Below are positions 17,686 through 35,324 of a DNA stretch of 64,000 bases, piece after piece (the stretch's first letter is position 1; every line of letters begins with the position of its first letter). The notes beneath the pieces were generated by a model. That model was not told where the DNA came from, made no database searches, and worked only from the letters and a program-made list of their open reading frames with translations. Source of the DNA: Hyphomicrobium sp. (GTDB lineage Bacteria > Pseudomonadota > Alphaproteobacteria > Rhizobiales > Hyphomicrobiaceae). Made by a program: the position numbers and the translations under genes. The stretch spans positions 186,001 to 250,000 of the forward strand of contig RXJH01000003.1 in the NCBI GenBank assembly GCA_003987725.1, in the 5' to 3' direction.

Positions 17686-18374
17686 GCTGCGGCTCCCTTG
17701 CTCGCTGCCGAGCCGCGGTCGTCCGCGAGCAGCGTGTGAACGAGGTCCCAAAGAATATGGTAGGCCGTAACGTGGCACTCCTGAGTGCGGTGGATCGAGG
17801 ACGTCGGCACCACAAGGCAGTGGTCGACAACGCCGGATGTCTTCATGCGGCCGCCGTCGCCTCCCGCGAGGCCGATGGTCACGAGGCCCATTTCCTTGGC
17901 TTTGGCGAAGGCCGAGATGAGATTTGTCGAGTTACCGCTGGTCGAAATCCCGATGAGTCCATCGCCGGCGCGGCCATGGGCGATGATCTGGCGGACGAAC
18001 ACATGCTCGAAGCCGACGTCGTTGCCGACCGCAGAAATCATCGCGAGATCGGCGACGAGATTGGTGGCGGCAAGTGCTGGACGTCCGGCGGTGATCGGAT
18101 GCACGAACTCGACGGCAACGTGGGACGCGTCGCACGACGAGCCGCCGTTTCCCATAGAGAACAGTTGCCCGCCACTGCGATAGATGCCGGCGACCGCTTT
18201 TGCTGCTGCGACGAGGACAGGTGCGGACGCGCCGAAAAAGGCCGCATTGGTTTCGCGGCTCTCTCTCGCTTTTTCCGCAACGGAGTGCAGGAGCGCGGCA
18301 TCGAGCTTTGCCGCGTCCTGGGGCTTGCCGTGAAGGAACGGATAGAGTGCTGCAAGTTCGGCTTCATTCGACAT
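17682..18374 (-). CDS. SIS-domain phosphosugar isomerase (GmhA-like) within the hyp cluster
   Basis: A 230-residue cytoplasmic protein of the sedoheptulose-7-phosphate isomerase family. The phosphate/sugar loops GNGGSSCDASHVAVEFVHP and ISTSGNSTNLI are intact, and the C-terminal His region (SIHRTQECHVTAYHILWDLV) resembles the GmhA zinc/catalytic site. It is about 35 residues longer than ordinary GmhA at the N terminus. It lies between hypC and hypD with an ATGA overlap onto hypD, so it is part of the maturation operon. No other heptose genes are nearby. A role in ligand supply, or lipopolysaccharide synthesis by chance linkage, are both possible. Confidence 0.85.
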   Translation of the reverse strand: MSNEAELAALYPFLHGKPQDAAKLDAALLHSVAEKARESRETNAAFFGASAPVLVAAAKAVAGIYRSGGQLFSMGNGGSSCDASHVAVEFVHPITAGRPALAATNLVADLAMISAVGNDVGFEHVFVRQIIAHGRAGDGLIGISTSGNSTNLISAFAKAKEMGLVTIGLAGGDGGRMKTSGVVDHCLVVPTSSIHRTQECHVTAYHILWDLVHTLLADDRGSAASKGAAA

Positions 18375-18385
18375 TGCAGAGCCTC

Positions 18386-18667
18386 CTAAATGGCGCCGGA
18401 AAGCCGCATGGCTTCCATTTCGGCCTGCGCTTCTCCGAGCTCGTGCAGAATTTTCAGCGTTTCTGCGGCTTCGGCTTCGTTGATGCGGCTCATCGCGAAG
18501 CCCACGTGGATGAGCACCCAGTCACCAATGCAGCTCTCTACAGGATGCGCGTCGCTGACAACGCAGGCGACATTCACCTGCCGCTTGACGCCGCTGACGT
18601 CGACGGTCGCGAGCTTCTTCTCCACATCATCGATCTTTACGATGCGCCCTGGAATGCCGAGACACAT
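18386..18667 (-). CDS. hypC: Hydrogenase assembly chaperone HypC
   Basis: A 93-residue chaperone beginning MCLGIPGRIVKI, whose Cys2 binds the iron precursor and the large subunit. The beta-barrel portion includes GDWVLIHVGFAMSRI. It scaffolds cofactor assembly with HypD. The 5' end overlaps hypF by 31 bases, and the SIS isomerase begins 11 bases after its stop. Confidence 0.96.
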   Translation of the reverse strand: MCLGIPGRIVKIDDVEKKLATVDVSGVKRQVNVACVVSDAHPVESCIGDWVLIHVGFAMSRINEAEAAETLKILHELGEAQAEMEAMRLSGAI

Positions 18668-21090
18668 GGCGTGTTTCCTCCGGTCGTGTTGTTGTTTTTT
18701 ATGAGTTTTGCGGCCGCGATTGCTGCCTGGCCGAGCGATAGCCCGCCGTCGCCCGACGGCACCTTGGCTTGGGTGAGAACCTTGAAATCCGCCGCTTCGA
18801 GCAGGGCAGTCACCTGCTCGAGCAGAATGCGGTTGTGGAAGCAGCCGCCCGAAAGGGCGACGGTGTCGAAGCGCGGGCCAGCCAGGCCGTCGCGAGCGGC
18901 GAGCTTCACGCACATGGCGGCGAGGGCACTTGCCAACCCGCGATGAAAACGCGCCGCCATGACGCCGACGGGTGTGTTGAGAACCAGATCGCCAAGAATG
19001 GCGTTCCAAACCGCAAGCGGCTCGATGTAGGGAAGCCGCGTCTCCTTGAGGTTTGGGATTGTGAAGGGGTAGGCGAGCGCCTCGTCCTCACTGCGAAGCG
19101 CGTCGTGATCGACGGCATTCTCCAACATTGCCGCCGCTTCGCCTTCGTAGCCCTGGCGGTCGAAGCAAAGGCCCATTGCCGCCGCAACAGCGTCGAACAA
19201 CCGGCCGCACGACGAAGATTTCGGTGAATTAAACCCCGAGCGGAGCATCGCGTCCAGGGTGGCGCGCGGTTTGCTTTCAAGATGGCGAAAGACATCGAGC
19301 GAACCGAAATTCATCCGCAACGACGGCCAGCCCAACTCCGCCATCAAGTGCGCATAGAGATTGCGCCAAGGCTCGCGCGAGGCGGCGTCGCCTCCGAGCA
19401 TCGCGACGGGCTTGAATGTCCCAACCCGCTCGAAGCGCGCATAGTCGGCAAGCAGAAATTCGCCTCCCCAGATCTCGCCGCCTTCGCCATAGCCGAGGCC
19501 ATCGAGCGCGACGCCGAGAACGTGACCACCATTCAACGGCCAGCCGTTCTCCACGAGACAGCTTGCGACATGAGCGTGGTGATGCTGGACCTCGACGAGC
19601 GGCAGGCCGAGGTCACGGCTCATATCTTCTGCGTGTCTCTTGCTCCGGTATCCCGGATGGCGATCGCAGACGATGGCCTCCGGCCGAGCGTCGATCATCG
19701 CGCGATAAAGGCCGATGGTCCCTGTGTAATCGTTGAACGTTCGGGCATCGGCCAAGTCGCCGATATGCTGAGACAAGACGGCGGCACCCGATTTCACAAA
19801 GCAGAACGTGTTTTTCAGATCGCCACCCGCGGCGAGCAGTTGGGGAACCTGCTCAAAGCCGTTCGGCAACCGGATCGCTGCGGGAGCGAAGCCACGCGCA
19901 CGTCGCATGACCCGCATCTTGCTAGCGGCGATCCGAACAACAGAATCGTCCACACGGTTCAGGATGTCCCGGTCGTGGGCGAGAGCGTAAGCTGCGATAC
20001 CTGAGAGTTCCTCGCGAGCGTCCGCATCGTCGGTCACCTGCGGCGCGTCGGAACGGTTTCCGGAGGTCATTACGACCGGGCGGCTCATGCGCCGGAGGAG
20101 AAGCGCATGTAGCGGTGTGGTCGGAAGCATGAAGCCGATCGTCCGCAGTCCAGGAGCGATGGCCTCCGGAAGCCGGTCGGTGCCGCAGGCCTCGAGAAGA
20201 ACGATTGGCGCGGCGGCACTTTTTAGAATTTCTTCGTCTTCAGTTGTAACTGTCGCATAGCGCTTGATGACGTCGAGGTCGCGCGCCATGAGCGCGAAGG
20301 GCTTGCGGTCGCGATGCTTCAGTTCGCGGAGACGCTCGACCGCGTCGGTGCGTGTCGCGTCGCACGCGAGCTGATAGCCGCCCAATCCCTTGATGGCGAC
20401 GATCTCGCCTTTCTGAATGAGCCCCAACGCCGCGTCGACATCATCGAGCATAGACGCCTGATCGAAGCTGAAGGGCTTTCCATCGAAGCGGAAGAGGCGG
20501 GCTTTCGGACCGCAGACATGGCAGGCCGTTGTTTCGGCGTGAAATCGCCGGTCACTCGGGTCTCCGTATTCGGCGGCACAATCAGGACAGAAGTCAAATG
20601 CGGCCATGCTGGTCGTCAGGCGATCGTAAGGAACGCTCCGGACGATCGAGAGGCGCGGACCGCAATTGGTGCAAGTCGTGAACGGATAGCGATAGCGGCG
20701 CGAGTACGGATCGAAGATGTCCCGGGCGCAATCCGTGCAGAGTGCCGCGTCTGGCGATATTTCGGTGTTGCTTTGGCCGGCCGAGCTTTCCGCAATTTCG
20801 AAGGTCTTCGGTAGCTCGCCTGAGAAGCGCTGATATTCGACGGATTGAACAGACGCGAGCGACGGCGCGCTCGTGCGAATTTGGTCGAGAAGCGTTTCGA
20901 TGGTCGTGAGCTCACCGCATACGCGAATGAGAACGCCATCGGCATCGTTGAGCACGTATCCAGATAGTCCAAGCCCTCGCGCGTTGCGCCAGACAAATGG
21001 CCGAAACCCGACGCCCTGCACACGGCCGCGGACGCGAATCTCGACGCTGTCTACCACTGGTCCGGCGGGAATGCGCACAGCGCGGCTCAT
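18637..21090 (-). CDS. hypF: Carbamoyltransferase HypF
   Basis: An 817-residue enzyme that uses carbamoyl phosphate and ATP to carbamoylate HypE. Domains in order: acylphosphatase (VRGRVQGVGFRPFVWRN), two zinc fingers (CTDCARDIF to CTNCGP, CPDCAAEYG to CHVCGP), YrdC-like domain (KGLGGYQLACDA, KHRDRKPFALMARD) and Kae1-like domain (VQHHHAHVASCLVENG). Length is as expected. Its start overlaps the stop of the NHL gene by ATGA, and its 3' end runs 31 bases into hypC. Confidence 0.97.
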   Translation of the reverse strand: MSRAVRIPAGPVVDSVEIRVRGRVQGVGFRPFVWRNARGLGLSGYVLNDADGVLIRVCGELTTIETLLDQIRTSAPSLASVQSVEYQRFSGELPKTFEIAESSAGQSNTEISPDAALCTDCARDIFDPYSRRYRYPFTTCTNCGPRLSIVRSVPYDRLTTSMAAFDFCPDCAAEYGDPSDRRFHAETTACHVCGPKARLFRFDGKPFSFDQASMLDDVDAALGLIQKGEIVAIKGLGGYQLACDATRTDAVERLRELKHRDRKPFALMARDLDVIKRYATVTTEDEEILKSAAAPIVLLEACGTDRLPEAIAPGLRTIGFMLPTTPLHALLLRRMSRPVVMTSGNRSDAPQVTDDADAREELSGIAAYALAHDRDILNRVDDSVVRIAASKMRVMRRARGFAPAAIRLPNGFEQVPQLLAAGGDLKNTFCFVKSGAAVLSQHIGDLADARTFNDYTGTIGLYRAMIDARPEAIVCDRHPGYRSKRHAEDMSRDLGLPLVEVQHHHAHVASCLVENGWPLNGGHVLGVALDGLGYGEGGEIWGGEFLLADYARFERVGTFKPVAMLGGDAASREPWRNLYAHLMAELGWPSLRMNFGSLDVFRHLESKPRATLDAMLRSGFNSPKSSSCGRLFDAVAAAMGLCFDRQGYEGEAAAMLENAVDHDALRSEDEALAYPFTIPNLKETRLPYIEPLAVWNAILGDLVLNTPVGVMAARFHRGLASALAAMCVKLAARDGLAGPRFDTVALSGGCFHNRILLEQVTALLEAADFKVLTQAKVPSGDGGLSLGQAAIAAAKLIKNNNTTGGNTPCVSAFQGAS

Positions 21091-22277
21091 GGTTCTGCGT
21101 CCCAAAGGAGAACGCGGTTGTTGCCACTGTCTGCAACGACGACCGTCGAGCCGCACGCTGCAATTCCGTATGGCCAGCATAGGCTATCGCGTTGAGGCGA
21201 GCGCCAGCGATTGTCGCCTTTGTCTTGAAATCCCGCTTGCCCCGCGAGGAAACCAGCCCCTGCGAACATGCGAAGATCAGAGATGTCATGCGCAACGATG
21301 CGGGAATTCGCCGTATCTGCGATGGCGATGCGGCGACCAACGCGAGCGATGCTGTAAGGCATATTGAGGGTCGCGGACGTCGGATAGTAGGAACCGGAAT
21401 TGTGATCGATACCGGAGAAGTTCTGCTGTCCGAGCACGAATGTGCACGGCGCACCATTCGTTTCCGGCAGCTCGTTCCAGATCATAACGCGGTTGTTTCC
21501 GGCATCCGCGACGAGAAGACGTCCCTCAAGCACCGCTACCGAGTGCGGCCACGTCATGCCTACATCGGCAACGGCGCGTCCGGCATTGCTATCGCGCGTG
21601 ACGAAGTCGGTTTCCCCAAGGACGAGATCCGCGGGGGCGCCGCTCTCGGCCGGAATCTGGTTCCATTTCAGGACGCGGCGATTGCCGGTGTCGGCGACCC
21701 AAAGTGCGCCATCCGCAATTGTCACGCCGTAGCACCAGTTGAGCGTGTCCGCTGCTGCCGCCGCGCCGCGGTTCGCAAGAACGCTTTCGAAATCGCGCTG
21801 GCCAAGCACGACATCCGCGGGCTGATTGGAATATGTTGGAAGCCCATGCCAGATCAACACGCGATGGTTCCAGGCATCGGCGATGGCGAGCACGTCGCCG
21901 TTGACGGCAACGCCCGTGGGAACATTCAGCGTGGCCGGTCCGGGAGACGTCTTGGCGTTGCGGCCTTCACTCTCGAAGTTCGGCTGACCGATCAGCAGGT
22001 CCGCCGCCGCTCCATCGTGACGGGGCGTCTGCCTCCAGATGAGCAGTCGATGATGGCCCGTATCGGCAACAAAAAGCGGACCGTCTTCGGATGCAAGCGC
22101 CGCACCGCGAGGGCCAAACAGCGTTGAAGGCGACGGCGTGATCGGATTGACGATGCCGTTGGGGCTCGAAACACTGCCGAAAATGACGCGCGCGCCTTCG
22201 GCTGCAAGCAGCGCTGGTGCTTGGCCGTCGAACGCCGATGGCCGCCGTACCGGCGCAAGGGATACGCGCATCGTCAT
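21087..22277 (-). CDS. NHL-repeat beta-propeller protein of the hydrogenase locus
   Basis: A 396-residue protein with no signal peptide. At least five NHL-type repeats share the pattern ADxxNHRVLIW followed by ADLLLGQxxFE, for example ADTGHHRLLIW, ADAWNHRVLIW, ADTGNRRVLKW, ADAGNNRVMIW and ADSGNNRVLLW, which would form a six-bladed propeller. NHL proteins are known companions of group 1h/5 hydrogenases. A scaffold or electron-transfer-complex role is plausible, but no cofactor motif is seen. It overlaps both neighbours by ATGA (NifU-Rieske before, hypF after). Confidence 0.85.
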   Translation of the reverse strand: MTMRVSLAPVRRPSAFDGQAPALLAAEGARVIFGSVSSPNGIVNPITPSPSTLFGPRGAALASEDGPLFVADTGHHRLLIWRQTPRHDGAAADLLIGQPNFESEGRNAKTSPGPATLNVPTGVAVNGDVLAIADAWNHRVLIWHGLPTYSNQPADVVLGQRDFESVLANRGAAAAADTLNWCYGVTIADGALWVADTGNRRVLKWNQIPAESGAPADLVLGETDFVTRDSNAGRAVADVGMTWPHSVAVLEGRLLVADAGNNRVMIWNELPETNGAPCTFVLGQQNFSGIDHNSGSYYPTSATLNMPYSIARVGRRIAIADTANSRIVAHDISDLRMFAGAGFLAGQAGFQDKGDNRWRSPQRDSLCWPYGIAACGSTVVVADSGNNRVLLWDAEP

Positions 22278-23149
22278 TTGGCCAACCTCACCTCGACCCG
22301 GGATCCGATGACGCGAACGGCGTGCGGCTGAAGCTGAATTGCCGGCGCAGTCAGGCATTCGCCTGTCATGAGGTCATATTGAAATTGATGGAATGGACAG
22401 GTGATGATGCCGTCGGCGACCTCGCCATCGTCCAGCGCTAGACCGAGATGCGCGCAAGCGTTTTGAAAGCACGTCACGATCGACCCGCGACGCGAAAGAA
22501 GAATTTTTTCACCTTCGAGAATCTGCGCCTTGATACCGCCGTCCGGAATTTCGGTAAGGCGGGCCGCATAATGCCACTGTCCTCCAGCCCCATTCGCAAA
22601 CGGACTTATTAAGTGCAGCGTCGCTCCGTCCTGATGGCCGTTCGCGGAAGTTTTGACCTGCAGGATCTCGGTAATCTCCGGGCACGCCTCCTCGACGGCC
22701 TTCTTGACGCCGGCATGGAAGGTCAACGCCGACGCGGGGCATCCGTCGCAGGAGCCGACAAAGCGAACCTCGATGGAGGGCGGCTTGACACCGACCAATT
22801 CGACGTCGCCACCGTGGGAGGCAAGCATAGGGCGGATGCTTTGAAGCGCTGCTTCGACGCGCTCGGTAAGGCTGGGCTTGACGATGTTGTGGCGGCGCAA
22901 GACACCGTAGACAACATCATCGGTAACAGCGGCCTTCATGGCATTGAGCGCCGCCGGGTCTCGCTTCAACGCACTGACGAGACGGCGCAGCGCTTCGCCA
23001 TTTAGCGCTTCGATCGCGCGACCGTACGCCATGGCGGCACCGCGCGGTGTCTCATCCCAGCCTTCGAAAATCATCTCCAGACGCTCGATATCACCGACGA
23101 AATCGGCAATCGCGCGTGGTTTGCTCTCGACGGCTTCGACTGCTGTCAC
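22274..23149 (-). CDS. NifU C-terminal domain fused to a Rieske [2Fe-2S] domain
   Basis: A 291-residue soluble protein. Residues 1-90 are a helical region of unknown function. Residues 94-165 are a NifU-like domain with the CxxC pair at 134 and 137 (VGSCDGCPAS). Residues 180-290 are a Rieske domain with the ligand sets C232-x-H234 (CAHLG) and C251-x2-H254 (CPFHQFQYD). The Rieske half could carry electrons from the hydrogenase toward the quinone pool; the NifU half usually scaffolds or carries Fe-S clusters. It follows two small membrane proteins and is translationally coupled to the NHL gene. Confidence 0.9.
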   Translation of the reverse strand: MTAVEAVESKPRAIADFVGDIERLEMIFEGWDETPRGAAMAYGRAIEALNGEALRRLVSALKRDPAALNAMKAAVTDDVVYGVLRRHNIVKPSLTERVEAALQSIRPMLASHGGDVELVGVKPPSIEVRFVGSCDGCPASALTFHAGVKKAVEEACPEITEILQVKTSANGHQDGATLHLISPFANGAGGQWHYAARLTEIPDGGIKAQILEGEKILLSRRGSIVTCFQNACAHLGLALDDGEVADGIITCPFHQFQYDLMTGECLTAPAIQLQPHAVRVIGSRVEVRLAK

Positions 23150-23155: not shown

Positions 23156-23383
23156 TCACCGATATCTGAGATCGCGAAAGAGACGTGGTTGCAACGCGCC
23201 GCCGAAGAAGCCTGCGACCGCAGCGGACGCCCAATACGGAAGCCCCGCGACCCGCGCCGCAAGAATGAAGCAGAGCGCAGCAAACAGAATTCCGATTGCA
23301 AGCTGCGTGTAGGCCCGCGCAGGTTCAGCGAAGAGCTTGCCGCTAAAGAAGAGCCCAATGGAATTTCGAACCATCTCAAACAT
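23156..23383 (-). CDS. Small two-segment membrane protein in hydrogenase operon
   Basis: A 75-residue protein with a polar N terminus (MFEMVRNSIGLFFSGKLFAE) and two hydrophobic segments (LAIGILFAALCFILAARVAGL and YWASAAVAGFFGGAL), ending in a basic tail (QPRLFRDLRYR). I do not recognise the family. It lies eight bases from the preceding small membrane gene and six from the NifU-Rieske gene, so it is surely in the operon. A membrane anchor for the otherwise soluble hydrogenase complex is a reasonable guess. An internal ATG three codons in is an alternative start. Confidence 0.7.
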   Translation of the reverse strand: MFEMVRNSIGLFFSGKLFAEPARAYTQLAIGILFAALCFILAARVAGLPYWASAAVAGFFGGALQPRLFRDLRYR

Positions 23384-23390: not shown

Positions 23391-23600
23391 TCACCCGATG
23401 AAAGCAGAAACGATGATGCCGATGAGAACGCCTGCCGTTCCGGCGACGACTCCGTAGAATGAGCCCATATAAGCCGCGAGCTCGGTTCCGAGCGCCTTAC
23501 CGCCCGTCAGCACTCCGCCGAAAGCGCCGCCCGCGAGCGACGCAACGAAACCTACGATTAGCGCGAGAATAGCCGCTCCAATCGGGATATTTCCAATCAT
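23391..23600 (-). CDS. Small glycine-rich membrane protein in hydrogenase operon
   Basis: A 69-residue protein with two hydrophobic Gly/Ala-rich segments (IGAAILALIVGFVASLAGGA and FYGVVAGTAGVLIGIIVSAFI) joined by GGVLTGGKALGTELAAYMGS. AGGAGG, one of the strongest ribosome-binding sites in the window, sits eight bases before the ATG at 23600; the frame opens at a GTG three codons earlier. The segments with GxxxG patterns suggest oligomerisation in the membrane. The family is unknown to me; its position suggests assembly or anchoring of the hydrogenase complex. Confidence 0.7.
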   Translation of the reverse strand: MIGNIPIGAAILALIVGFVASLAGGAFGGVLTGGKALGTELAAYMGSFYGVVAGTAGVLIGIIVSAFIG

Positions 23601-23634
23601 CGACCCCACCTCCTTTATTGGCCTATTGGCGTTT

Positions 23635-24651
23635 TCAATCAGCTTCGATCATGTGTCCGTTCGAGATCCGCGGAGCTGCAGATGCGAGCAATTCGCGATC
23701 GATCTGATCGAGGGCTTCCGCAACGATTCGAGCTTTGCTTTGCTCCCCCGCCGCCGAAAAAATCTCCCGGGCTTCGAGGTAGAGATCCCGGGCAGCCGCA
23801 ATATTCCTGCGATTGCCCGACGTCGGATTGCCGACGTCATCCGGCAGGTTCCAAAGACAGTTCGCCTTGTTGGAGATCGTGTTGGCGTATTCGCGCGGTG
23901 TCGTCTTGCGATCCCGCACCTTCAACGCCTCGTCGTAAGCTTCGATGGCGCGCAAGTTGTTTTCCAGAACGTGGCTCGAAGATGCATACTGGAGCGCATT
24001 TCCAAGGTTGTTCTGAAGCATCGCATATTCGGACGGGTGGTCGATCAAGGTGACGACCTTGAGGCCCTCCTCGAAGGCCTGCACGGCAAGTGCTTCGCGC
24101 ATTTTTGCGCGCTCGTCAGTAAAGGGGATCGATAGGAACGCCGTCGCAAGATTATTTTGAAGGATCGCGTATTCCTTCGGAAAAGCCACCCGGTCGAAGG
24201 TTCGGAGAGACCGCTGATAGGCGGAAATCGCGTCCGTGATCCGCGCCTTCCCCGCGCCCGCAAGACTTTGCAAAGCGATACCGAGATTCATTTCGGCTTC
24301 AGCAAGCTCTTCCGCTGTACCGAGATCGCGAATGGAGGGAATTGCTGCCTGAAGCTCGTCGCGCGCGCATTCGAGCGACGTGGTGCCGTTGTCCGGTATC
24401 GCCTGTAGCGCCGTCGCCTTACGGGCACCAATCCGCGCCTTCAACAGAGTATGCGTCGGCGGGCAAAGCTCCTGAGCTTTGCTGTAGAGTTCGACAGCCG
24501 CAGCGAGATCGTCTCCAGACTGTGGTCTGATCTGAAGGCCGAGCGCGATCTCCATCAGCATTTCGGCACGCTCTTCGGGTGAGGCGGTGTCGGCGTCTGC
24601 TGCGGCCAACGCGGCCCGCACCTGGTCCTGCGCCCCAACTGTCACGCCCAT
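23635..24651 (-). CDS. Tetratricopeptide-repeat protein of the hydrogenase locus
   Basis: A 338-residue soluble, mostly helical protein with TPR-like units. Examples are AEAEMNLGIALQSLAGAGKA, EYAILQNNLATAFLSIPF, EYAMLQNNLGNALQYASS and REYANTISNKANCLWNLPDD, each followed by an aromatic/Ala helix. Such repeats make protein-protein contacts; TPR genes occur in other group 1h hydrogenase clusters. The gap of 121 bases from the upstream gene is the longest inside the accessory block and might carry a minor promoter, though I see no clear one. It ends 34 bases before the first small membrane gene. Confidence 0.85.
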   Translation of the reverse strand: MGVTVGAQDQVRAALAAADADTASPEERAEMLMEIALGLQIRPQSGDDLAAAVELYSKAQELCPPTHTLLKARIGARKATALQAIPDNGTTSLECARDELQAAIPSIRDLGTAEELAEAEMNLGIALQSLAGAGKARITDAISAYQRSLRTFDRVAFPKEYAILQNNLATAFLSIPFTDERAKMREALAVQAFEEGLKVVTLIDHPSEYAMLQNNLGNALQYASSSHVLENNLRAIEAYDEALKVRDRKTTPREYANTISNKANCLWNLPDDVGNPTSGNRRNIAAARDLYLEAREIFSAAGEQSKARIVAEALDQIDRELLASAAPRISNGHMIEAD

Positions 24652-24772: not shown

Positions 24773-25081
24773 CTAAAATGCGTTCCTCGCGACGAGAGCG
24801 GCGCGGTCGTCATCCCAGATCGCGGGCAATGTCATTTCAACGGAATCTTCGATGCCGTTATCGCGAAAGAAGTCGGCGGCAGCGACAGCGCGATCGCCGG
24901 CTCCGGTTCGGATCTTTATGACATAGCCGCCAGCAGCGCGGTGATGGACCGGAAGCACGACGAGGTCGTTGCCGTTGCGAAGAAGGACGACGGCTTCGAG
25001 GGAATTGAAAAAGCGTTCGTAGGTCCCGCGGGTGAAGTGAAGCGCGCCGCGGCGGATTGCGAGGAATGCATGTTCGTTCAT
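24773..25081 (-). CDS. Conserved hypothetical protein of the hydrogenase locus
   Basis: A 102-residue protein with no signal, transmembrane segment or cysteine. It begins MNEHAFLAIRRGALHFTRGT and contains a predicted beta-rich core (AVVLLRNGNDLVVLPVHH, GGYVIKIRTGAGDRAVAAAD) and an acidic region (NGIEDSVEMTLPAIWDDD). The start overlaps the maturation protease stop (ATGA), so the two are translationally coupled, which suggests action at the processing or assembly step. I do not recognise a family. Confidence 0.75.
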   Translation of the reverse strand: MNEHAFLAIRRGALHFTRGTYERFFNSLEAVVLLRNGNDLVVLPVHHRAAGGYVIKIRTGAGDRAVAAADFFRDNGIEDSVEMTLPAIWDDDRAALVARNAF

Positions 25082-25569
25082 GCGGCACCGGCTGCAGTGG
25101 ATAGTGCGAAGGCGCCGATGCGCGCTACGATGCGGTCGGCGACGGTCGTTGCAGCGGCGTCGATTTCAGGAGAAAGACCGAGTCCAAGCTCCAAATCACG
25201 GGCTTCGATCAGATAGACGGTCACGTCGGACGGAAACTGTTCGCGGTAGAGCTGGCGGCCGGCAAAAAGCGCGTGATCCCAGCGAAAATCATGGAGATTA
25301 AGTGAGGGCACGTGCGGCGCTTCGAGCTCGCGTCCCGGCACCTCGAACACGGATCCCGGCTCCGATCCCGTGCGTGAGCTGTCGACGATGATCAGAGCAT
25401 CACAGCCGCGCGCGGCGTACATCACGCTCATGCCGTCCGTGCCTGCGTCGAGGAGTCGAACATCCTCACGGCCGCGAAGATCGTCGCGGCTGCGGAGCAA
25501 TCGGATGACTTCGACGCCCGCAGCGTCATCTTTCCTGTTGGCGTTGCCGCAACCGATCACCGCAATCAT
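25078..25569 (-). CDS. [NiFe]-hydrogenase maturation protease (HyaD/HupD family)
   Basis: A 163-residue endopeptidase. The N terminus MIAVIGCGNANRKDDAAGVE has the family GNxxxxDDxxG pattern with the nickel-sensing acidic residue, and DALIIVDSSRTGSEPG and LNLHDFRWDHAL carry the second Asp and the His. It should remove the 16-residue tail of the large subunit after nickel insertion. A longer upstream frame is open, but this ATG matches the family and begins two bases after the preceding stop. It is coupled to the next gene by ATGA. Confidence 0.93.
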   Translation of the reverse strand: MIAVIGCGNANRKDDAAGVEVIRLLRSRDDLRGREDVRLLDAGTDGMSVMYAARGCDALIIVDSSRTGSEPGSVFEVPGRELEAPHVPSLNLHDFRWDHALFAGRQLYREQFPSDVTVYLIEARDLELGLGLSPEIDAAATTVADRIVARIGAFALSTAAGAA

Positions 25570-25570: not shown

Positions 25571-25900
25571 TCAAATCCGCCAAAGTCGGCACGACCATTC
25601 CGGCTCGACCGGACAGTCGAGTTCCGGTAGTTCACAGTATTTGCGGTGGACGAGATAGTACATGCAGGTTTCGCACGGCTGCTCGATGCCGCCGTGCTCG
25701 ATCGTGTGGTCGGTAAAGCCAGCGATGATGAGCTTGGCCTTGAGGTCGCCGCCCTGATCTCGCAGCCGGGCAATGATCGCTTGCACCTCTTCATGGGTGT
25801 CGGCGCGCGGAAAGACCTCGGTTTCAAGGCCTGACGCGAGAAGCGATCTGATGTCTTCCCGCCGTTGATCGTCGCCCGTTGTTTCCAAGGCTACTGTCAC
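25571..25900 (-). CDS. HiPIP-like four-Cys protein, copy 1
   Basis: A 109-residue soluble protein. The C-terminal third has four aligned cysteines (C76, C79, C89, C104; C-x2-C-x9-C-x14-C) within CETCMYYLVHRKYCELPELD and PVEPEWSCRLWRI, plus an extra C95. The spacing and the end V-x3-W-S-C-x2-W resemble the high-potential iron-sulfur protein signature (V-x3-G-W-C-x2-W type), with Trp for the Gly. It is a paralogue of the next gene upstream. HiPIPs are normally periplasmic; this one has no signal peptide. An electron carrier or Fe-S/zinc protein for the hydrogenase is my inference. Confidence 0.7.
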   Translation of the reverse strand: MTVALETTGDDQRREDIRSLLASGLETEVFPRADTHEEVQAIIARLRDQGGDLKAKLIIAGFTDHTIEHGGIEQPCETCMYYLVHRKYCELPELDCPVEPEWSCRLWRI

Positions 25901-25933
25901 AGTATCACCTCGACCGATTGTTGTTGTGCTCGA

Positions 25934-26251
25934 TCAAATTCTCCATAACCGGCACCACCAGTCCGGCTCGACGGGAACTGAAAGCTCCGGCAGGTCGCAC
26001 CATTTGCGATGGACGAGATAGTACATGCACTCGAGGCACCGCTGCTGGTCAGGTCCATAAGGACGGTTCACGAAGCCGCTGATCACGAGCTTCGATTTGA
26101 GATCTTCGGGCTCGAGATGGCGGAGTTCGGTGAGGATCGCACCAAACTCTTTCTCGGTTTCCGGAAACGGCTCCGTCTGTGTTTTGAGGCCCGCCGCCAT
26201 CATGTCGGAGATGGTTTTCAGCACAGCCTCGTCTTTTCCGTTCGCGCTCAT
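25934..26251 (-). CDS. HiPIP-like four-Cys protein, copy 2
   Basis: A 105-residue soluble protein with the same architecture as its neighbour: helical N-terminal half (ETEKEFGAILTELRHLEPED), then SKLVISGF and a Cys-rich C terminus with C72, C75, C85 and C100 (CLECMYYLVHRKWCDLPEL, PVEPDWWCRLWRI). The last 34 residues are nearly identical to copy 1, while the N-terminal halves diverge, so the Cys module is under strong constraint. I chose the ATG at 26251 because AAGGTGGAAG precedes it. It is the first gene after the large subunit (94-base gap). Confidence 0.7.
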   Translation of the reverse strand: MSANGKDEAVLKTISDMMAAGLKTQTEPFPETEKEFGAILTELRHLEPEDLKSKLVISGFVNRPYGPDQQRCLECMYYLVHRKWCDLPELSVPVEPDWWCRLWRI

Positions 26252-26345: not shown

Positions 26346-27944
26346 TCAGGCTGTACGGAAGCGAGCGAGCTGCTCACCGGTTTTCGCATCATATGCATGC
26401 ACCGTGCAAACGAGACAGCTATCGTATGATCGACAAACATGCCCGACCTCGACCGGATCATGCGGATCGGTTATCGGCGTACCGATCAGCGCTTCTTCGA
26501 TCGGGCCGCGTATGCCGTCTCCTGTTCGCGGACCGACGTTCCACGTGGTCGGCGCGATGATTTGATAGTTCTTGATCTTGCCGCCCTGTACGTCGATCCA
26601 GTGACAGAGCGCCCCGCGTGCGGCTTCGGTTGCACCCCAGCCGCGGCCGTCCTTTTCGGTCGGCTTGATGTACCACTGATCCTTGAGTTTCAATTCGCGC
26701 AGAATGCGTTCGGCCTCGCGATAGAGCTTCACTGCCTCGTGCATGCGTGCGAAATGGCGAAGCAGGATGCTCGCACCGCCCATCTTCTGATACATATCGA
26801 GCACAAGCGGGTCGTAGTGCTGCCAGCTCTCGCCATGCTTGCCTCCGGCGACGAGCTGGCGCGACAGCGGGCCGGCTTCGAGACGGCCATCTTGAACATG
26901 CAAGACCGCCGAGGACCAGGAATACTTGCCGTTGTGATCGACGTCGTTCTTCTGGGCCGGCTTTGTGGTGCGGTCGAAGGGGTGAACCGGCTGCGGTTCG
27001 TCATACCAGGCGTGGCGCAGGTCTTCGCGCGTGAACTGCTGCTCCATCAACTTGTGCGTGCCGGTAGCGCCGTCGAACACGCCGCTCTTCATAATAAGGG
27101 CGGCGTTGCGGCCCTCGATCGTCGGCTTGTTGTAACGGTCTTCGTGCGGCAGGTATCCCCACGAAATATACTTGTGATGACCGCGCCCGTATTTGTCGAG
27201 GCCGATGTCCATCGACATGCGCCAGAACAGGCCGAGGTCGGAGTTTGCGTGGTCGGGACGTTCGTCGAGCCATGCCAGGAAATCGTCATAGGAGCGGATC
27301 TGCTCATAGCGTTCGAGCGAGCAGCCGAGCCAGACCGGTTCGAGCCAGTTGCGGCGGAAGTGCTCGAGGATCGACCATGCGCGCGTCACGTCGGTTAATG
27401 TCGGCGCGCACATGACGCCACCGGGAACCATGTAGCTCGAGTGGGGCCACTGGCCTCCGAGCAACGCGTAAATCTCGACAGGGCGGCCCGAGATGGTGAC
27501 GCCGATTTCGTAGTTCTTGCCGGTAAACGGCGCCCACCGTTTCACGGCTTCCTCGAAGAACGGCGACTTGGCGTAGTTCTTGTTCGTGTAGTCGATCATG
27601 AACAGGCCGTAGTGATGGCGCGGCTGGCTCTGGATCGTCTCCACGATTTGTCCAAGGTTACGCGCCAGGATGGCGTTCCGCGGCACCTCGGTCTTCCATG
27701 CCGTATCGAGGGCCCAGGCCGCGCACGAGAGATGCGATGCACCGCAGATGCCGCAAGCGCGCGGCGTAACGACGAGGCCCGCTTGCGGATCCTTGTCGCG
27801 TAGGATGACTTCAAATCCGCGGAAGAGCTCCGCGTTGGTCCAGGCGTTGACGACGACGCCGTCCTGAATATCGACGCGAACGTCGAGGTCGCCTTCGACA
27901 CGTCCGACTGGCGAAATATCCAGGGTTTGAATTGCTGCTGACAT
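26346..27944 (-). CDS. hhyL: Group 1h/5 [NiFe]-hydrogenase large subunit
   Basis: A 532-residue catalytic subunit that oxidises H2. Motif L1 is TPRACGICGASHL with nickel ligands C64 and C67; L2 is SYDSCLVCTVHAYD with C510 and C513. Cleavage after H516 would release a 16-residue tail (AYDAKTGEQLARFRTA) by the downstream protease. The opening SPVGRVEGDLDVRVDIQDG and the whole-length pattern resemble the actinobacterial-type, high-affinity group 1h enzymes able to use trace H2 in air. The start has GGGAG upstream. It follows the small subunit after 50 bases. Confidence 0.95.
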   Translation of the reverse strand: MSAAIQTLDISPVGRVEGDLDVRVDIQDGVVVNAWTNAELFRGFEVILRDKDPQAGLVVTPRACGICGASHLSCAAWALDTAWKTEVPRNAILARNLGQIVETIQSQPRHHYGLFMIDYTNKNYAKSPFFEEAVKRWAPFTGKNYEIGVTISGRPVEIYALLGGQWPHSSYMVPGGVMCAPTLTDVTRAWSILEHFRRNWLEPVWLGCSLERYEQIRSYDDFLAWLDERPDHANSDLGLFWRMSMDIGLDKYGRGHHKYISWGYLPHEDRYNKPTIEGRNAALIMKSGVFDGATGTHKLMEQQFTREDLRHAWYDEPQPVHPFDRTTKPAQKNDVDHNGKYSWSSAVLHVQDGRLEAGPLSRQLVAGGKHGESWQHYDPLVLDMYQKMGGASILLRHFARMHEAVKLYREAERILRELKLKDQWYIKPTEKDGRGWGATEAARGALCHWIDVQGGKIKNYQIIAPTTWNVGPRTGDGIRGPIEEALIGTPITDPHDPVEVGHVCRSYDSCLVCTVHAYDAKTGEQLARFRTA

Positions 27945-27994: not shown

Positions 27995-28957
27995 TCAGAC
28001 GACGAAGATGTCTTCTTCGGCCCACTTGGGTGATGCGACCTTGGCCGCCGCCGTCAGTTTCACGTAGCCGGTCTTGTCGACGCCGAGCGGCATGTCTTTC
28101 GGCACGCCCATGACGGTTTGCGTCTTGAAGACCGTGCCCGGCGCAAGGTCGTAGAAGGGGAATTCGGGCTCGGTACAGCCCATGCACGGCATGCCGGCGC
28201 GCGTCTTGGAGGATTGGCGGTTCCAGAGAATGCGATTGCACGGCGAATGCGTCATCGGTCCGCGGCAACCGAGATCGTAGAACAGGCAGCCCTTGCGCTG
28301 ACCGAACTCCGTCGCCGAAACCTTGTAGGCGAAGTGCATGTTGCGCGTGCAGCCGGTCTGCGTGAAGCTTTGGAAGAACGTCTTCGGCCGCTGGAATTCA
28401 TCGAGCGACAAATCTCCGCCGCGCCCGGTCGCAACGGCAACGACAATCTGGGTGATCCAGTCGGGATGTGCGGGACAGCCCGGAATGTTGATGACGGGCA
28501 GGCCGGCTTTCGATTTGTAGTCCTTGCCGAGGAAACCGCCGTGCCCGCGCTTCAGGAATTGGAGGCCGACGCTCTCGGAGGGGTTCGGCGCGGTGGCCGG
28601 GATGCCGCCCCAGGTGGCGCAGTCACCAACGGCAACCGTATAAGCCGCAACGTTTGCAAGTTCGCGCACCCAATCCATCATCGGGCGACCTGCGAAGCGG
28701 TTCCATTGGCCCGTTCCGTTCGGCGCCTTCACGACGGAGCCCTCGAAAACGAAGATATCGAGAGGCATCTGCCCGCTGACGAGCGCGCGCATCATCTTCT
28801 GAAGATTCTCGCCGAGCTCCATGCCGAGCGAAGGATGCCAGAGAACGTTGATGCCGAAATCTGTGACGAGATCGCATGCACTCGGTTCCTCGGCATTGAG
28901 GAACGACATTGTATTCCCAGAGCATGCGCCGCCCTGGAGCCACAGAAGATTGGCCAT
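27995..28957 (-). CDS. hhyS: Group 1h/5 [NiFe]-hydrogenase small subunit
   Basis: A 320-residue electron-transfer subunit. It begins MANLLWLQGGACSGNTMSFL with no twin-arginine signal, so the enzyme should be cytoplasmic. The usual CxGC of the proximal cluster is here C12-S-G-N, leaving C12, C113 and C161 as proximal Cys candidates; an Asp as fourth ligand is known from the related Ralstonia enzyme. C203, C224, C231 and C240, C258, C261 fit medial and distal clusters. The start at 28957 follows AGGGGAG; the frame extends further upstream. The sigma-54 promoter at 29010-29025 should drive it. Confidence 0.95.
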   Translation of the reverse strand: MANLLWLQGGACSGNTMSFLNAEEPSACDLVTDFGINVLWHPSLGMELGENLQKMMRALVSGQMPLDIFVFEGSVVKAPNGTGQWNRFAGRPMMDWVRELANVAAYTVAVGDCATWGGIPATAPNPSESVGLQFLKRGHGGFLGKDYKSKAGLPVINIPGCPAHPDWITQIVVAVATGRGGDLSLDEFQRPKTFFQSFTQTGCTRNMHFAYKVSATEFGQRKGCLFYDLGCRGPMTHSPCNRILWNRQSSKTRAGMPCMGCTEPEFPFYDLAPGTVFKTQTVMGVPKDMPLGVDKTGYVKLTAAAKVASPKWAEEDIFVV

Positions 28958-29163: not shown

Positions 29164-29412
29164 TCAGCCCCGCCGGCTACCGCACGTTGGGCACGCGACT
29201 TCGAGCAGATATCCGAACCAGATTTTCCGGCAGTAGCTGCACCAGTGGCCCGTGGTTTGTTCGATTGGGAGGCCGATCTCGCGCGCGAGCGCGCCGTACG
29301 CCACAGATTCGACGTCGACGTCGGCGGCGCGGCTCGGCTTGACGCGCGAATAGGGGAACGGAACGATTTCCGCGAGATCTTTCTCGTCGTCGTCAGACGG
29401 TCCGACCGTCAT
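29164..29412 (-). CDS. Small zinc-ribbon protein of the hydrogenase locus
   Basis: An 82-residue acidic protein ending in a treble-clef or rubredoxin-like pair: WCSYCRKIWFGYLL and ACPTCGSRRG (CxxC-x12-CxxC). The N-terminal half is acidic and unstructured-looking (SDDDEKDLAEIVPF). It may bind zinc or iron. The start overlaps the activator stop by ATGA, so it is co-translated with the regulator rather than with the structural genes, which have their own sigma-54 promoter. The family is not recognised; a regulatory accessory or chaperone role is possible. Confidence 0.7.
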   Translation of the reverse strand: MTVGPSDDDEKDLAEIVPFPYSRVKPSRAADVDVESVAYGALAREIGLPIEQTTGHWCSYCRKIWFGYLLEVACPTCGSRRG

Positions 29413-30863
29413 GATGCGTTTTCCTCATCGAGTCGATAGCGACGAATTTTGTTCGAAAGTCCGACCCGGGAAAGGCCGAGCTCTTCAGCCGCCTTGCTTT
29501 GGTTCCAACGATAGCGCTTGAGCGTCTGCTGGACGAGATGGCGTTCAAGACTTTCGACTTGATCTTTCAGCGTCTTGCCCTCGGGTACAAAGCCTCGATC
29601 CCGGTTCGAGGGTCCACGGCGCGGAGCGTCCTGAATGTTAGGCGAAAGATGTCGCGTCGTCAGGTATTCCCCGTCACCTGTCAATGCAACCAAGCGGCGG
29701 ATCTCGTTCTCCAATTCTCGAACATTTCCAGGGAAGTCGTAATGCGAGAGCTTTTCGAGCAGGTTAGCCGAGAGGCCGAGAATCTTGCGCCCCATGTTCT
29801 CGCTGTGCTTAGCGGCGAAGAACTCGGCAAGCGCTGAGATATCGGCGACACGGTCGCGTAAAGGCGGAACCTCGAATTCGATGCCTTTGAGGCGGTAATA
29901 GAGATCGCGGCGGAATTCGCGCGTCGCCACGAGTTGCGACAGCGGCCGGTTGGAGGCCGCAATGATGCGCACGTTCGAGTGAATGGTCCGATCCGAACCC
30001 AAAGGCTTCACTTCGCCCTCTTGCAGGAAGCGAAGGAGCGAAACTTGAAACGAAGCCGAGACCTCCGAGATTTCATCGAGAAACACCGTGCCGCCGTCAG
30101 CCGCGCGAAAAAGGCCGAGCCGATCGGAGATGGCACCGGTGAAGGCGCCACGCTTGTGCCCGAAGAGTTCCGACTGCAAGAGATCATCGTTCATGCCGCC
30201 GCAGTTCTGCATGAGGAGCGGACTCGACTTGCGCGACGAATTATAGTGGATCGCCCGCGCGAGAAGCTCCTTGCCCGTTCCCGTCTCACCTTGAATGAGG
30301 ATCGGCAGGTCCGTTTTCGCAGAGGTCTTCGCCATCTCGCAGATCGTCGCCATTTTCTCACTGGCGTAGACGAGTTTTTCGAACTGCTGGCCCTCGTGAA
30401 TCAGCCGCAAATCGTGTGGCGGATGATAGGCGATGCTCTCGTCGCTCATCTTGAACTCGCGCGAGATCAGGCGATGACGGCGCGCAAGTTCTCTGCTCTC
30501 AAGTCCACGTTTGACGATGAGAGCGATTTGTTCGACCTCAAGAGGCTTGCGGACATACTGATAAACCGATGCTTCCCTGAACGCTTTCGACTGCCGGTCG
30601 CCGCCTCTGGCGAGAACCAGGACCCGAACGATATCCGGATGAGAGATCCGCAAATTGGAGAGAAGCGCGCAGCCGTCGAAATCCTTGCTGCCCTCATCCG
30701 CAACAACGAGGTCGATGTGAACATCTCTCGTCAACTGGTGAGCTTCGATGTCCGTCGTCGCGACGAGCACGCGATATCCGCTGCGATCCGCCATCACTTC
30801 CGCGAGTTCGGTCCAGGTGCCCTCGTCGCGGGCGACGATCAAGATGGTGTAGTCTCGGTCCAT
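29409..30863 (-). CDS. Sigma-54-dependent response regulator of the HoxA/HupR (NtrC) type
   Basis: A 484-residue transcription activator. The receiver domain (1-120) keeps the Asp in DLVVADEG and Lys in YVRKPLE, but lacks the usual Thr/Ser (ARGGD) and the MP of the acceptor loop. The AAA+ domain has Walker A GETGTGKE, the sigma-54 contact GAFTGA, and Walker [11 protein letters not shown]; a Fis-type helix-turn-helix follows ([20 protein letters not shown]). HoxA/HupR activate uptake hydrogenase operons. Neither the kinase (HupT/HoxJ) nor an H2-sensing hydrogenase is in the window, so the input signal is unknown. A sigma-54 promoter is 0.4 kb downstream. Confidence 0.9.
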
Positions 30864-32596: not shown

Positions 32597-35221
32597 CTAG
32601 TTGAACTTGACCTTTACGCCGCCGTACGCGGTGATCGGCGGAGCGGGCAGGATCGTGCGGGCATCCGTGAAGTTGATGCTGCCGAGGGCTGCACCGCTGT
32701 CGTTGGTTTCTTGCGCATCGAAGTAAGTTCCGTAGACCCCGTAGTGCGCATCGAAGAGATTGTCGATGAGACCGTAAATCTGAATGTTGTTGGTCACGTC
32801 GTACGAGGTATGCAGATTGACCTTCGCATATCCGCCAAGTGCCTTATTTTGATTTGACTCATCGCCAAAGAAAACTTGGCTGGTTGCCGCAATGAGGTCG
32901 GCTCCAAACCGCCACTTGGGCGTCAATCCATAGTCGAAGCCCGCTTTGAACTTATGCGCCGGAACGCCGGGGAGACGGTCTCCGGAATGAACGAAGATGT
33001 TTCCATCGCCGTCGGCCGATGGGCTGTTGGGCGACGGGAGAGTCAAATCACTCTGAAACGTTGCGTCGACAAAGTTATAGCTCGCATAGGCAAAGAGTCG
33101 TCCCGACCAGTAGTCGACCTGCGCCTCGAGACCCTGCCGTAACGTCTGTCCCGCATTGGCAAATGAACTCCTGCCGATAATCGCGGAGGTCACGTTGGTG
33201 ATGTCATCGTCATTGAGCGTACGGAAATAGCCGAGGCTCCAGCTCACCTTTTCATGTGCAGTAATATTTGTGTTCTCGCCTCGGAAGCCTGCCTCCCAAG
33301 TGTGCGACACAACCTGCTTCAACGGTGGATCGGAAGTTAGAAAGCTTGGCAGGAGGCAAGGTTGCAAGGGATCGGCGCAGGCCAATTCAGCAGCGACGGG
33401 AGCACGGTTGGCTTCCGAGTAGCTACCATAGACCGAGATGCCGTCGAAAAGCCTGTATGTGCCGCCCGCCATCGGGTTGAACCGGCTATAGGTCGGCGAA
33501 CTATTGAGACCGGGCGCCAACCCCGTTTTGTCTTCAATTTGCAGATCGGCAACGTTGAAGCGGCCGCCGACCGTCAGCGAGAGGCGATCGGTTGCGTCGA
33601 ACGTGTCCGAGAAAAAGGCGCCATAGTAAGTATTCGAGGTCGAGATATTGACTGGTCGTATATCCGATAAAGTCGTCGTCGCGGTAGGCGTACAGAAGCC
33701 ATCGGATTCGACATTGTTCGCACAGACCGTCGCGACGGGGCCGACGAATCCTCCTCCGCCTTGGACGACGAACTGTGGCTGGAAGAAGCCGAGCTCTGCG
33801 GATGACTGGAACGAGACATTGCCATGGTCGACGCTGGCACCGATCAGAAACTGATTGTGGTGATCGAAGAGCTGGGCTTTCTCGACGGCCTGGACCGAAA
33901 CGCCGAAGCTGTTTGCATCGACGGACGTTCGGTCGATTTCGCCGAGGCCATCAATGCCATTTGGAAGGTTGATGACATTGCCGGCCGTATCATGCAGCAG
34001 GATATCTGAGCCATCCAGACTCTGCAGACAGGCCCCGGTGGTTCCCGAGCCGTCGTTTATGGGGCACGGCGAAGCGTTGGAAATGTTTCCGTCAATATGC
34101 TGCTGATTGAAGTGCCGGTAGTAGGCGACTCCAGAAAAATCCAAGGTGTCTGTGGCCCGCACCTTGCCGTTCAAAGACACCATCTCCATTTGGTTCGTCG
34201 TCGATTGCGGCGTCGAAAAGGTCTTGTTCCATCCTTGATCGAGAAGCTCGACGGGTGAAGCAGCAGCGACGCCGACGGTGTTGTCAGCACCGGTGAAATT
34301 CAGATGGAACTCCGATCCATCACCCCTGACACCGAGATCCGCATACATTCGCCGGATATCTGACTCGCCGAAATCGCGATAACCGCCGTCATGAATATCC
34401 TCGAGCGCGATGTACGTCGCCCAGTTGCCAAACCTCATTCCATCCTGAATGGAGCCTTGCGCGCGCCCATAGGAGCCGAAGCGGGCATCCGTCTCGAACC
34501 CCTGGTACGTGAAGCCGTTCTTCATATCGATCGAGAGGGCGCCGCCGATGGCATTCAAGCCATACACAGGGTTGCCGCTCATGATGGTCATGCTTTGAAT
34601 GGCGGCAGTCGGCAGAAAATCGTAATTGACGGTGTCACCGAAGGCCTCGTTGATGCGCACGCCGTTCTGGTAGACAGCGAGACCTTGCGGGACGCCATCG
34701 ACCGGAGACGAATTAAAGCCGCGGTAGTCCACGTTTGTCTGAAAAACGTTTCCCTGCACGTCGCTCAGGATTACGCCGGGGACGTAAGCGGCTAGTGCGT
34801 CGGGGACGTACTCGGTGCCCGTGCGTGCCAGCTCGGAAGCGGATACAGTGCTGACGCCGCCCGGAACCTTCGCGATCGGGATTTCGCTGCCGCCGATCGG
34901 CGACATCTTTGCTACAGCCGGTCCTGGTGCCACTTCGTAGATTTTGCCGTCGGCTGCAGCGTCAACCGCCGCTTCCGCTGCGGGCGGTGGTGTTGCCGGC
35001 GCCGTCGCGACAGCAGTCGGCTTTTTCTTCGGCTTACTTGCTTGTTTCACCGGTTTGGGTTTGGTGTTTTTCTGCTCCTGGATGACCTGCACCTCAGGCA
35101 GCTTTGAGTCTGACGATGGAGCGGCCGCCGCGCCATTCGCTTGCTGCGCAATCGCTGACCAAGCAAACCCGGTCGCGAAGAGTGCGATTGCAGCCGTTGA
35201 CGTGAAATTCCTGAGTTTCAT
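32597..35221 (-). CDS. TonB-dependent outer-membrane receptor
   Basis: An 874-residue receptor. A signal peptide (KLRNFTSTAAIALFATGFAWSAIAQ) is followed by a TonB-box-like LPEVQVIQEQ, a Lys/Pro/Ala-rich linker (TKPKPVKQASKPKKKP), a plug domain (about 130-260, with YVPGVILSDVQG and NAIGGALSIDM) and a long beta barrel ending KVKFN with the terminal aromatic next to last. The ligand is unknown: no riboswitch, Fur-like box or transport genes accompany it. The start at 35221 follows AAGGGGGG; a longer frame is open upstream. It lies 103 bases after the autotransporter gene on the same strand and may be co-transcribed. Confidence 0.9.
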   Translation of the reverse strand: MKLRNFTSTAAIALFATGFAWSAIAQQANGAAAAPSSDSKLPEVQVIQEQKNTKPKPVKQASKPKKKPTAVATAPATPPPAAEAAVDAAADGKIYEVAPGPAVAKMSPIGGSEIPIAKVPGGVSTVSASELARTGTEYVPDALAAYVPGVILSDVQGNVFQTNVDYRGFNSSPVDGVPQGLAVYQNGVRINEAFGDTVNYDFLPTAAIQSMTIMSGNPVYGLNAIGGALSIDMKNGFTYQGFETDARFGSYGRAQGSIQDGMRFGNWATYIALEDIHDGGYRDFGESDIRRMYADLGVRGDGSEFHLNFTGADNTVGVAAASPVELLDQGWNKTFSTPQSTTNQMEMVSLNGKVRATDTLDFSGVAYYRHFNQQHIDGNISNASPCPINDGSGTTGACLQSLDGSDILLHDTAGNVINLPNGIDGLGEIDRTSVDANSFGVSVQAVEKAQLFDHHNQFLIGASVDHGNVSFQSSAELGFFQPQFVVQGGGGFVGPVATVCANNVESDGFCTPTATTTLSDIRPVNISTSNTYYGAFFSDTFDATDRLSLTVGGRFNVADLQIEDKTGLAPGLNSSPTYSRFNPMAGGTYRLFDGISVYGSYSEANRAPVAAELACADPLQPCLLPSFLTSDPPLKQVVSHTWEAGFRGENTNITAHEKVSWSLGYFRTLNDDDITNVTSAIIGRSSFANAGQTLRQGLEAQVDYWSGRLFAYASYNFVDATFQSDLTLPSPNSPSADGDGNIFVHSGDRLPGVPAHKFKAGFDYGLTPKWRFGADLIAATSQVFFGDESNQNKALGGYAKVNLHTSYDVTNNIQIYGLIDNLFDAHYGVYGTYFDAQETNDSGAALGSINFTDARTILPAPPITAYGGVKVKFN

Positions 35222-35324
35222 GTTGTCCCCCCTTCCGGTTTTCCTTGCTCGCCTCCGGCGCTGACTGAACCGTTGGCGTTCAACCAAACGAGTTCGTTGT
35301 CAGCGCCGGCATGACGGGGAGTTC

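Follow-up and report, generated by a model that had tools for sequence, protein, structure and literature searches.

Two adjacent paralogous genes in the stretch of Hyphomicrobium sp. DNA analysed here (64,000 nucleotides, hereafter the window) encode small proteins, Cys1 and Cys2, which follow the large subunit of a group 2a [NiFe] hydrogenase and end in a four-cysteine module that, judged by its sequence, is a divergent, cytoplasmic HiPIP-like domain not filed under the Pfam family HIPIP (PF01355). The pair is found at hydrogenase loci where HucM, an accessory protein of the mycobacterial enzyme Huc, is not seen, and it may pass on the electrons of the hydrogenase. We therefore favour the reading that Cys1 and Cys2 form a cytoplasmic [4Fe-4S] relay serving one lineage of group 2a hydrogenases, to which we give a probability of about 45 %.

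Results

The hydrogenase cluster of the window

On the minus strand, the cluster runs from a sigma-54 response regulator through an 82-aa protein, HupS, HupL, Cys1, Cys2, a maturation protease, a 102-aa protein and a TPR-type protein to two small membrane proteins, HucE, an NHL-repeat protein and HypF (Table 1). The original prediction had assigned the hydrogenase to group 1h. HupS scored 529 bits against the Huc small subunit (7uur/7utd) versus 119 bits against HofK (5aa5), and HupL scored 640 bits against Huc versus 116 bits against HofG; 7utd and 7uus were identified as mycobacterial Huc from their HucM chains, and HofK/HofG we take to be a 1h-type hydrogenase. On these scores, an assignment to group 1h was rejected. 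Huc belongs to group 2a (PMC6883350), and by subunit similarity the hydrogenase beside Cys1 and Cys2 is a Huc-like member of the same group. Since the enzyme is of group 2a, the absence of the pair from group 1h loci, which had been named as a finding that would speak against the prediction, does not bear on it; the pair is found in group 2a loci.

Table 1. Genes of the group 2a hydrogenase cluster in the window
Feature	Position	Strand	Remarks
Sigma-54 response regulator	29409-30863	minus	HupR-like by place
82-aa protein	29164-29412	minus	C-terminal CxxC...CxxC end; before hupS
HupS/HucS, small subunit, group 2a	27995-28957	minus	start from alignment with 7uur
HupL/HucL, large subunit, group 2a [NiFe] hydrogenase	26346-27944	minus	
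Cys1	25934-26251	minus	105 aa; ATG at 26251; first gene after hupL
Cys2	25571-25900	minus	109 aa; GTG start; Cys1 paralogue
Hydrogenase maturation protease, HycI family	25078-25569	minus	ATG at 25569, just past the Cys2 stop
102-aa protein without known function	24773-25081	minus	also in some loci lacking the pair
TPR-type protein	23635-24651	minus	distant relatives annotated TPR in loci L109 and L110
Small membrane protein, two hydrophobic segments	23391-23609	minus	asr0689-like, below model cut-off
Small membrane protein with a single hydrophobic segment, at the threshold used	23156-23383	minus	
HucE, NifU-like and Rieske domains	22274-23149	minus	
NHL-repeat protein of the cluster	21087-22358	minus	homology with annotated NHL proteins
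HypF	18637-21180	minus	frame as listed

Several of the accessory genes accompany the pair elsewhere. Of the 80 loci that carry the pair (the best 80 of 121 relatives, see below), 63 have relatives of the 82-aa protein, which itself shows a very weak match to HypA (E 0.13). The TPR-type protein is named after its distant relatives, as its own sequence does not match Pfam TPR. The two small membrane genes are present in all 55 loci with the pair that hold both the TPR-type and the HucE gene, and were found in none of six group 2a loci lacking the pair (L108-L112, L129). We do not claim that the small membrane proteins are specific to clusters with the pair: the first one resembles the cyanobacterial asr0689 product at 33.7 bits, i.e. 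under the cut-off of 95 bits, a likeness that connects it with the extended hyp operon of cyanobacteria.

Other genes in the surroundings may be mentioned. SIS-domain genes lie near or inside group 2a clusters of distant phyla, i.e. at 17682-18374 of the window, at 22395-23051 of L108 and at 1149-2327 of L109; GmhA has been counted among maturation proteins (PMC7735108). Judging from the translations, a TonB-receptor-like frame (32597-35287) and a large autotransporter-like frame (35325-38345) of the window flank the cluster where the regulator lies.

Cys1 and Cys2 are paralogues with a conserved C-terminal module

The start of Cys1 was placed at the ATG from which its relatives align; the frame in the ORF list begins upstream, within HupL. 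The protein consists of an N-terminal helical domain of ~60 residues and the C-terminal HiPIP-like four-cysteine module. Cys2 carries the same module, with W-S-C in place of W-W-C ahead of the last cysteine, as well as one additional cysteine that is absent in most relatives. As originally described, these are two adjacent small paralogues beside the hydrogenase, their frames are present, and both show the spacing C-x2-C-x9-C-x14-C and the terminal CRLWRI. They are 48 % identical over their full length and share 26 of the 34 C-terminal residues, which is a strong conservation, although 'almost invariant', as these residues had been called, slightly overstates it. When their own genome was searched with Cys1, Cys2 was recovered at E = 3.2e-27 as the sole other match at E <= 1; the two are the sole family members in this genome and their paralogy is far beyond chance.

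An alignment of 119 rows was built from the two window proteins and 117 of 149 relatives, near-copies and one X-containing row being omitted. Invariant throughout are the four cysteines, two Trp and one each of Gly, Tyr and Pro. His81 is nearly invariant, with substitutions in several members (e.g. L019, L069 and L077).

Distribution and age of the pair

A scan of genome contigs yielded 121 relatives, the best 80 of which were kept as loci; their titles name members of Pseudomonadota, Nitrospirota and Acidobacteriota. Among these best 80 of 121, two copies are found in 67 loci, one in 12 and three in a single locus, and HupL precedes Cys1 in 79; in the 80th (L015), the contig begins at Cys1. 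The neighbourhood survey suggested along with the original prediction thus bears out the linkage to the hydrogenase, at group 2a rather than group 1h loci. All 12 single copies (among the same 80) are nearest to Cys1; in one of these loci (L073), the contig is cut just after Cys1, and the other 11 have sequence beyond the lone copy. Two genomes with a single-copy locus (L041, L048) hold another family member elsewhere. Within the phylum of the window, the family was present in 4 of 397 sampled genomes, its own genome counted.

In a tree of the 119 rows, which is based on few columns and whose bootstrap is not settled, the 61 Cys1 rows form one clade with a support of 99/100, suggesting that the duplication into Cys1 and Cys2 is old. 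The residues before the last ligand differ accordingly, being mostly Trp-Trp/Tyr-Cys in Cys1 and mostly Trp-Ser-Cys in Cys2.

Deviating copies were also seen. In two loci (L019:6353-6583 and L046:2304-2534), the place of Cys2 is taken by a very divergent 76-aa version with a shorter N-terminus and the module kept, and these short proteins stand apart from both Cys1 and Cys2 in the tree. The genome of the Rhizobacter locus L041 (G1291) holds an isolated module, CASCIYFLPDHGHCDLPELNFPVDPDWWCLLWRC, without the N-terminal domain (L148:1929-2327), and no relatives of hydrogenase-cluster genes were found in the 9 kb around it. In the genome of the Methylocapsa acidiphila locus L048 (G1281), an orphan Cys1-like gene (L147:7511-7957) lies ~2.7 Mb from the hydrogenase cluster, with no other cluster gene in the surrounding 16 kb.

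The module is related to HiPIPs at the profile level

As a rule of thumb, the cysteines of HiPIPs are spaced C-x2-C-x(n)-C-x13-C. In a profile-profile comparison (hhalign), the 44-residue module, represented by 113 distinct rows, aligned to a profile of 13 true HiPIPs with a score of 27.75 (E 1.2e-5, probability 81 %) and with all four cysteines matched. The maximum score was 15.43 in 150 permutations that kept the cysteine columns and 15.48 in 100 full column permutations. Six control profiles scored lower still against the module, i.e. rubredoxin 14.35, HypF 13.64, HupS 13.53, Rieske/HucE 12.5, the 82-aa CxxC family 10.77 and HupL 9.2. The likeness to the HiPIP signature that had been noticed by eye therefore survives the profile tests (27.75 versus at most 15.5 permuted and at most 14.4 for the controls). 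Rubredoxin was rejected as the nearest relative, since its score, obtained over 6 columns and with 7 sequences, lies within the permutation range, as was the 82-aa CxxC protein of the same cluster on account of its score.

Much of this signal stems from a few HiPIPs: after removal of the four closest HiPIP rows, the score drops to 22.89 and the probability to 45 %, over 15 columns only. Aligned as whole proteins, the family matched the HiPIP profile at E 2.7e-4 with a probability of 42 %.

The relation is also seen when either profile is used to rank 19,159 ORFs, a collection that included HiPIP loci on purpose and thus serves as a ranking test, not as a random survey. The two top matches of the module profile outside the family were true HiPIPs (L098, E 3.2e-5; L100, E 0.044), the former at 23.6 bits versus 8.5 bits for the best reversed decoy; conversely, the HiPIP profile ranked 19 HiPIPs, directly followed by Cys1-type proteins (E 0.02-0.13). 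The HiPIP of L098, the nearest one and a true member of its family at 75.6 bits, shows the spacing C-x2-C-x9-C-x13-C-x2-W.

In single-sequence scans, the HMM search proposed with the original prediction stays below the Pfam threshold; the relation shows in the comparison of profiles. PF01355 has a curated cut-off of 22 bits, and the best family member, the Cys1 of L042, reached 14.7 bits (E 0.039); Cys1 and Cys2 of the window had no match in a single-sequence scan, and just 7 of the 119 members appeared at E <= 10, the best of them at E 0.057. The Gly-Trp-Cys at the last ligand, which is invariant in the 13 HiPIP rows, is represented by Trp-x-Cys in the Cys1/Cys2 family, where the Trp two positions before the last cysteine is invariant in all 119 rows. 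A Tat-like motif within the first 45 residues was found in none of the 119 family rows versus 18 of 19 true HiPIPs, which fits the cytoplasmic location proposed at the outset. In one Cys1 (L006), a hydrophobic stretch reaches the strength of HiPIP leaders (1.86); all other rows are below 1.4. Membership of Pfam HIPIP was rejected, since the proteins stay under its cut-off and have neither the Gly-Trp-Cys nor the Tat leader.

Structure prediction, likewise proposed beforehand, gave a confident model of Cys1 (pLDDT 94.4), for which Foldseek returned no HiPIP match in the PDB and no fold match among viral models; the module modelled alone was poor (pLDDT 67.7). Scans of PHROGs and NCBIfam yielded nothing useful. 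Four of the 119 members matched DUF2284, with a best E of 4e-4, i.e. better than the best HIPIP match in the same scan; this match was absent in all 17 members scanned singly, and no DUF2284 proteins were found in 58 genomes searched.

HucM is not seen where the pair is found

In Huc, HucM acts as scaffold and quinone conduit and has been proposed to lead menaquinone to the HucS site formed by K212, Y229 and Y301 (PMC10017518). A profile search for HucM, covering flanks of up to 6 kb, matched in none of the 80 loci with the pair (the best 80 of 121 relatives), with no match in the window either, and DUF1641 had no match at E <= 0.1 in the genome of the window. Conversely, six group 2a loci lacking the pair were examined: four hold HucM and two, both from Bacteroidota, matched neither the HucM nor the pair profile.

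Among plasmids, 17 records carry a HupS of at least 63 % identity. The pair is carried by exactly the 12 records with at least 81 %, including seven Bradyrhizobium records with identical scores, and by none of the five with 63-70 %. Three of these five, from M. intracellulare, Thermus and Sulfobacillus, have a homologue of HucM; the one in M. intracellulare matches the HucM of 7uus at E 2.9e-34. As the first HucM profile had been built from the three genes that it then recovered, the search was repeated with leave-out profiles, and the Thermus and Sulfobacillus homologues were recovered by profiles omitting them (Sulfobacillus E 1.1e-23).

Further genomes were found by HupS alone. Three genomes outside the 80 loci with a HupS of 81-89 % identity (G846, G1170, G1273) all hold the pair, while an acidobacterial genome with a HupS of 73 % (G465) holds HucM (E 9.4e-35) and lacks the pair; three of the 80 loci titled Acidobacteria (L051, L058, L064) have the pair. 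A genome whose HupS (45 %) belongs to another subgroup (G562) is without the pair. Four further genomes were set aside as anchors or already known (G398, G397, G147, G000), another was taken as L022 and not counted as new (G1240), and in one the sequence ends within HupS (G004). In Parageobacillus, the group 2a operon has DUF1641 as well, and the table passages of PMC12976888 show no such pair.

The residues of the quinone site are retained in the lineage with the pair. When the menaquinone-site positions were placed on HupS by alignment with HucS, the equivalents of K212, Y229 and Y301 were kept in 73/73, 73/73 and 72/73 (one gap) loci with the pair, respectively.

Discussion

If Cys1 and Cys2 act as an electron relay, each HiPIP-like domain would hold one [4Fe-4S] cluster by its four cysteines. 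HupL would split H2, the electrons would run through the three clusters of HupS, and Cys1 might dock near the distal one, with Cys2 as its partner or an alternative form. Cys1 would accept single electrons at a comparatively high potential and hand them to the membrane respiratory chain, possibly via the cluster's two small membrane proteins. The pair would thereby stand in for HucM, which in mycobacteria does this job by bringing quinone to the enzyme.

The potentials reported for HiPIPs range from 50 to 500 mV (PMC7462912), and that of menadione is -74 mV (PMC10017518). A usual HiPIP potential would suit an acceptor of electrons from H2, whereas passing electrons on to menaquinone would run uphill with anything but an unusually low potential. 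PMC7735108 cites a purification of A. ferrooxidans Hup that gave two subunits, so no tight complex is known. It also counts against a relay that the HupS quinone-site residues are kept in loci with the pair, since direct quinone reduction without HucM may then persist. Further points against it are the shortfall from Pfam HIPIP, the missing HiPIP match of the confident model, the 11 loci with a lone copy, the two Bacteroidota loci with neither HucM nor the pair, and the orphan copies apart from hydrogenase genes. In one view, HupS goes on reducing quinone that arrives by another route and the pair acts in assembly or protection; in the other, the electrons go to the pair and the conserved residues are there for the distal cluster.

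The first of these options leads to the most serious competing explanation, according to which the pair takes no part in the respiratory path but carries a cluster, or provides electrons or Fe-S, during the assembly of HupS or HupL in air, as proposed for HupG-K in other uptake hydrogenases. The two genes sit between hupL and the maturation protease, among maturation genes, and with the quinone site retained in HupS another acceptor is not strictly required. Moreover, hupGHIJK have been described as genes for small-subunit maturation, and other accessory genes of group 2a clusters, asr0689-alr0693, have been proposed to mature the small subunit (PMC3126725). However, the four clusters with HucM and the two from Bacteroidota do without the pair despite sharing the protease, TPR-type and NHL genes, an argument that assumes an active enzyme from these six loci, and rubredoxin is no close relative of the module. 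We consider a role in maturation rather unlikely; it comes close behind the relay, which the relatedness to HiPIPs and the contrast with HucM lead us to prefer.

The four-cysteine module could also be structural. Its short spacing suits zinc as well, nearly invariant His81 is a possible further ligand, and there are weak single matches to zinc families, namely BIR in the orphan copy of L147 and, for a single one of the 119 members, the FmdE treble clef (E 0.018 each); as HucM doubles as a scaffold (PMC10017518) and the pair occurs where HucM does not, Cys1 and Cys2 might be zinc-binding adaptors that replace HucM as HupSL scaffold or membrane tie, with no redox work. Yet His81 is replaced in several members, and the module is closer to HiPIPs than to any of the six controls, a likeness owed to the residues that flank the cysteines and not to the cysteines alone, making such an adaptor distinctly less probable than a maturation factor. 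Finally, a small Cys/Trp-rich module may have come to look HiPIP-like by convergence, in which case the pair would be a regulator or another kind of carrier. The module is short (34-46 residues), fold searches gave no match, its isolated model was poor, and orphan copies lie apart from hydrogenase genes (L147, L148); the ranking of profiles in both directions and the permutation controls argue against coincidence, and we regard it as quite improbable.

Returning to the electron relay, it is tempting to speculate that group 2a hydrogenases have two exits for their electrons, i.e. quinone led in by HucM or a cytoplasmic HiPIP-type pair, possibly toward the small membrane proteins, a generalization that we hold more tentatively than the relay itself. 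How electrons from trace H2 reach respiration in group 2a has been structurally resolved in mycobacteria, whose enzyme comes with HucM (PMC10017518). Sphingopyxis alaskensis has a plasmid-borne group 2a hydrogenase working at trace H2 (PMC10305171), and that of Nitrospira moscoviensis, from the same type of cluster, also works at trace H2 (PMC9381531). Both belong to our loci (L113 and L040, respectively), so the lineage with the pair includes consumers of sub-atmospheric H2, and no HucM was found in the stretches searched around either cluster. In the culturable S. alaskensis, where the pair corresponds to SALA_RS16235 and SALA_RS16240, the question is directly testable. Two exits, if true, would mean a new coupling of trace-H2 uptake to respiration and, to our knowledge, the first HiPIP-type carriers working in the cytoplasm.

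Comparison with known systems

The original prediction knew of no functional description of such proteins. This calls for one qualification: DN052_04130, near hupLS of Acidithiobacillus ferrooxidans, was named a putative HiPIP and, together with a NifU-Rieske protein, proposed as a likely missing link to ubiquinone (PMC7735108). Like the pair, it is a putative Fe-S protein near hupLS of group 2a, and it is numbered next to the unknown DN052_04125. From its place and name, DN052_04130 is the probable counterpart of Cys1, while DN052_04125 fits Cys2 by number only. In its available text, PMC7735108 treats DN052_04130 without a family, pairing, distribution or comparison with HucM, and among the matches listed in a search of the open-licence literature for HiPIP with hydrogenase, no other title or abstract start concerned these subjects. 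The naming as a putative HiPIP thus dates from the 2020 paper, and the family, its distribution and the contrast with HucM are new.

Rubredoxin is likewise a small four-cysteine protein tied to uptake hydrogenases (PF00301), i.e. HupI, the Fe-S protein of group 1 hup operons; none was found in the genome of the window. HucE and HhyE (NifU-Rieske and related) are Fe-S proteins of the same clusters as the pair, yet HucE is a separate gene, present with and without the pair; in M. smegmatis, deletion of hucE or hhyE each reduces H2 oxidation and deletion of both abolishes it (PMC6883350). With HiPIPs (PF01355), the family shares a similar order and spacing of the cysteines and the aromatic residues after the second and at the last cysteine, but it has one residue more before the last cysteine (x14 versus x13 in L098) and an N-terminal helical domain, and is without the Gly-Trp-Cys and the Tat leader. 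HucM (DUF1641, from the Huc of Mycobacterium smegmatis) is, like the pair, an accessory of this one hydrogenase subgroup, but neither profile matches the genes of the other.
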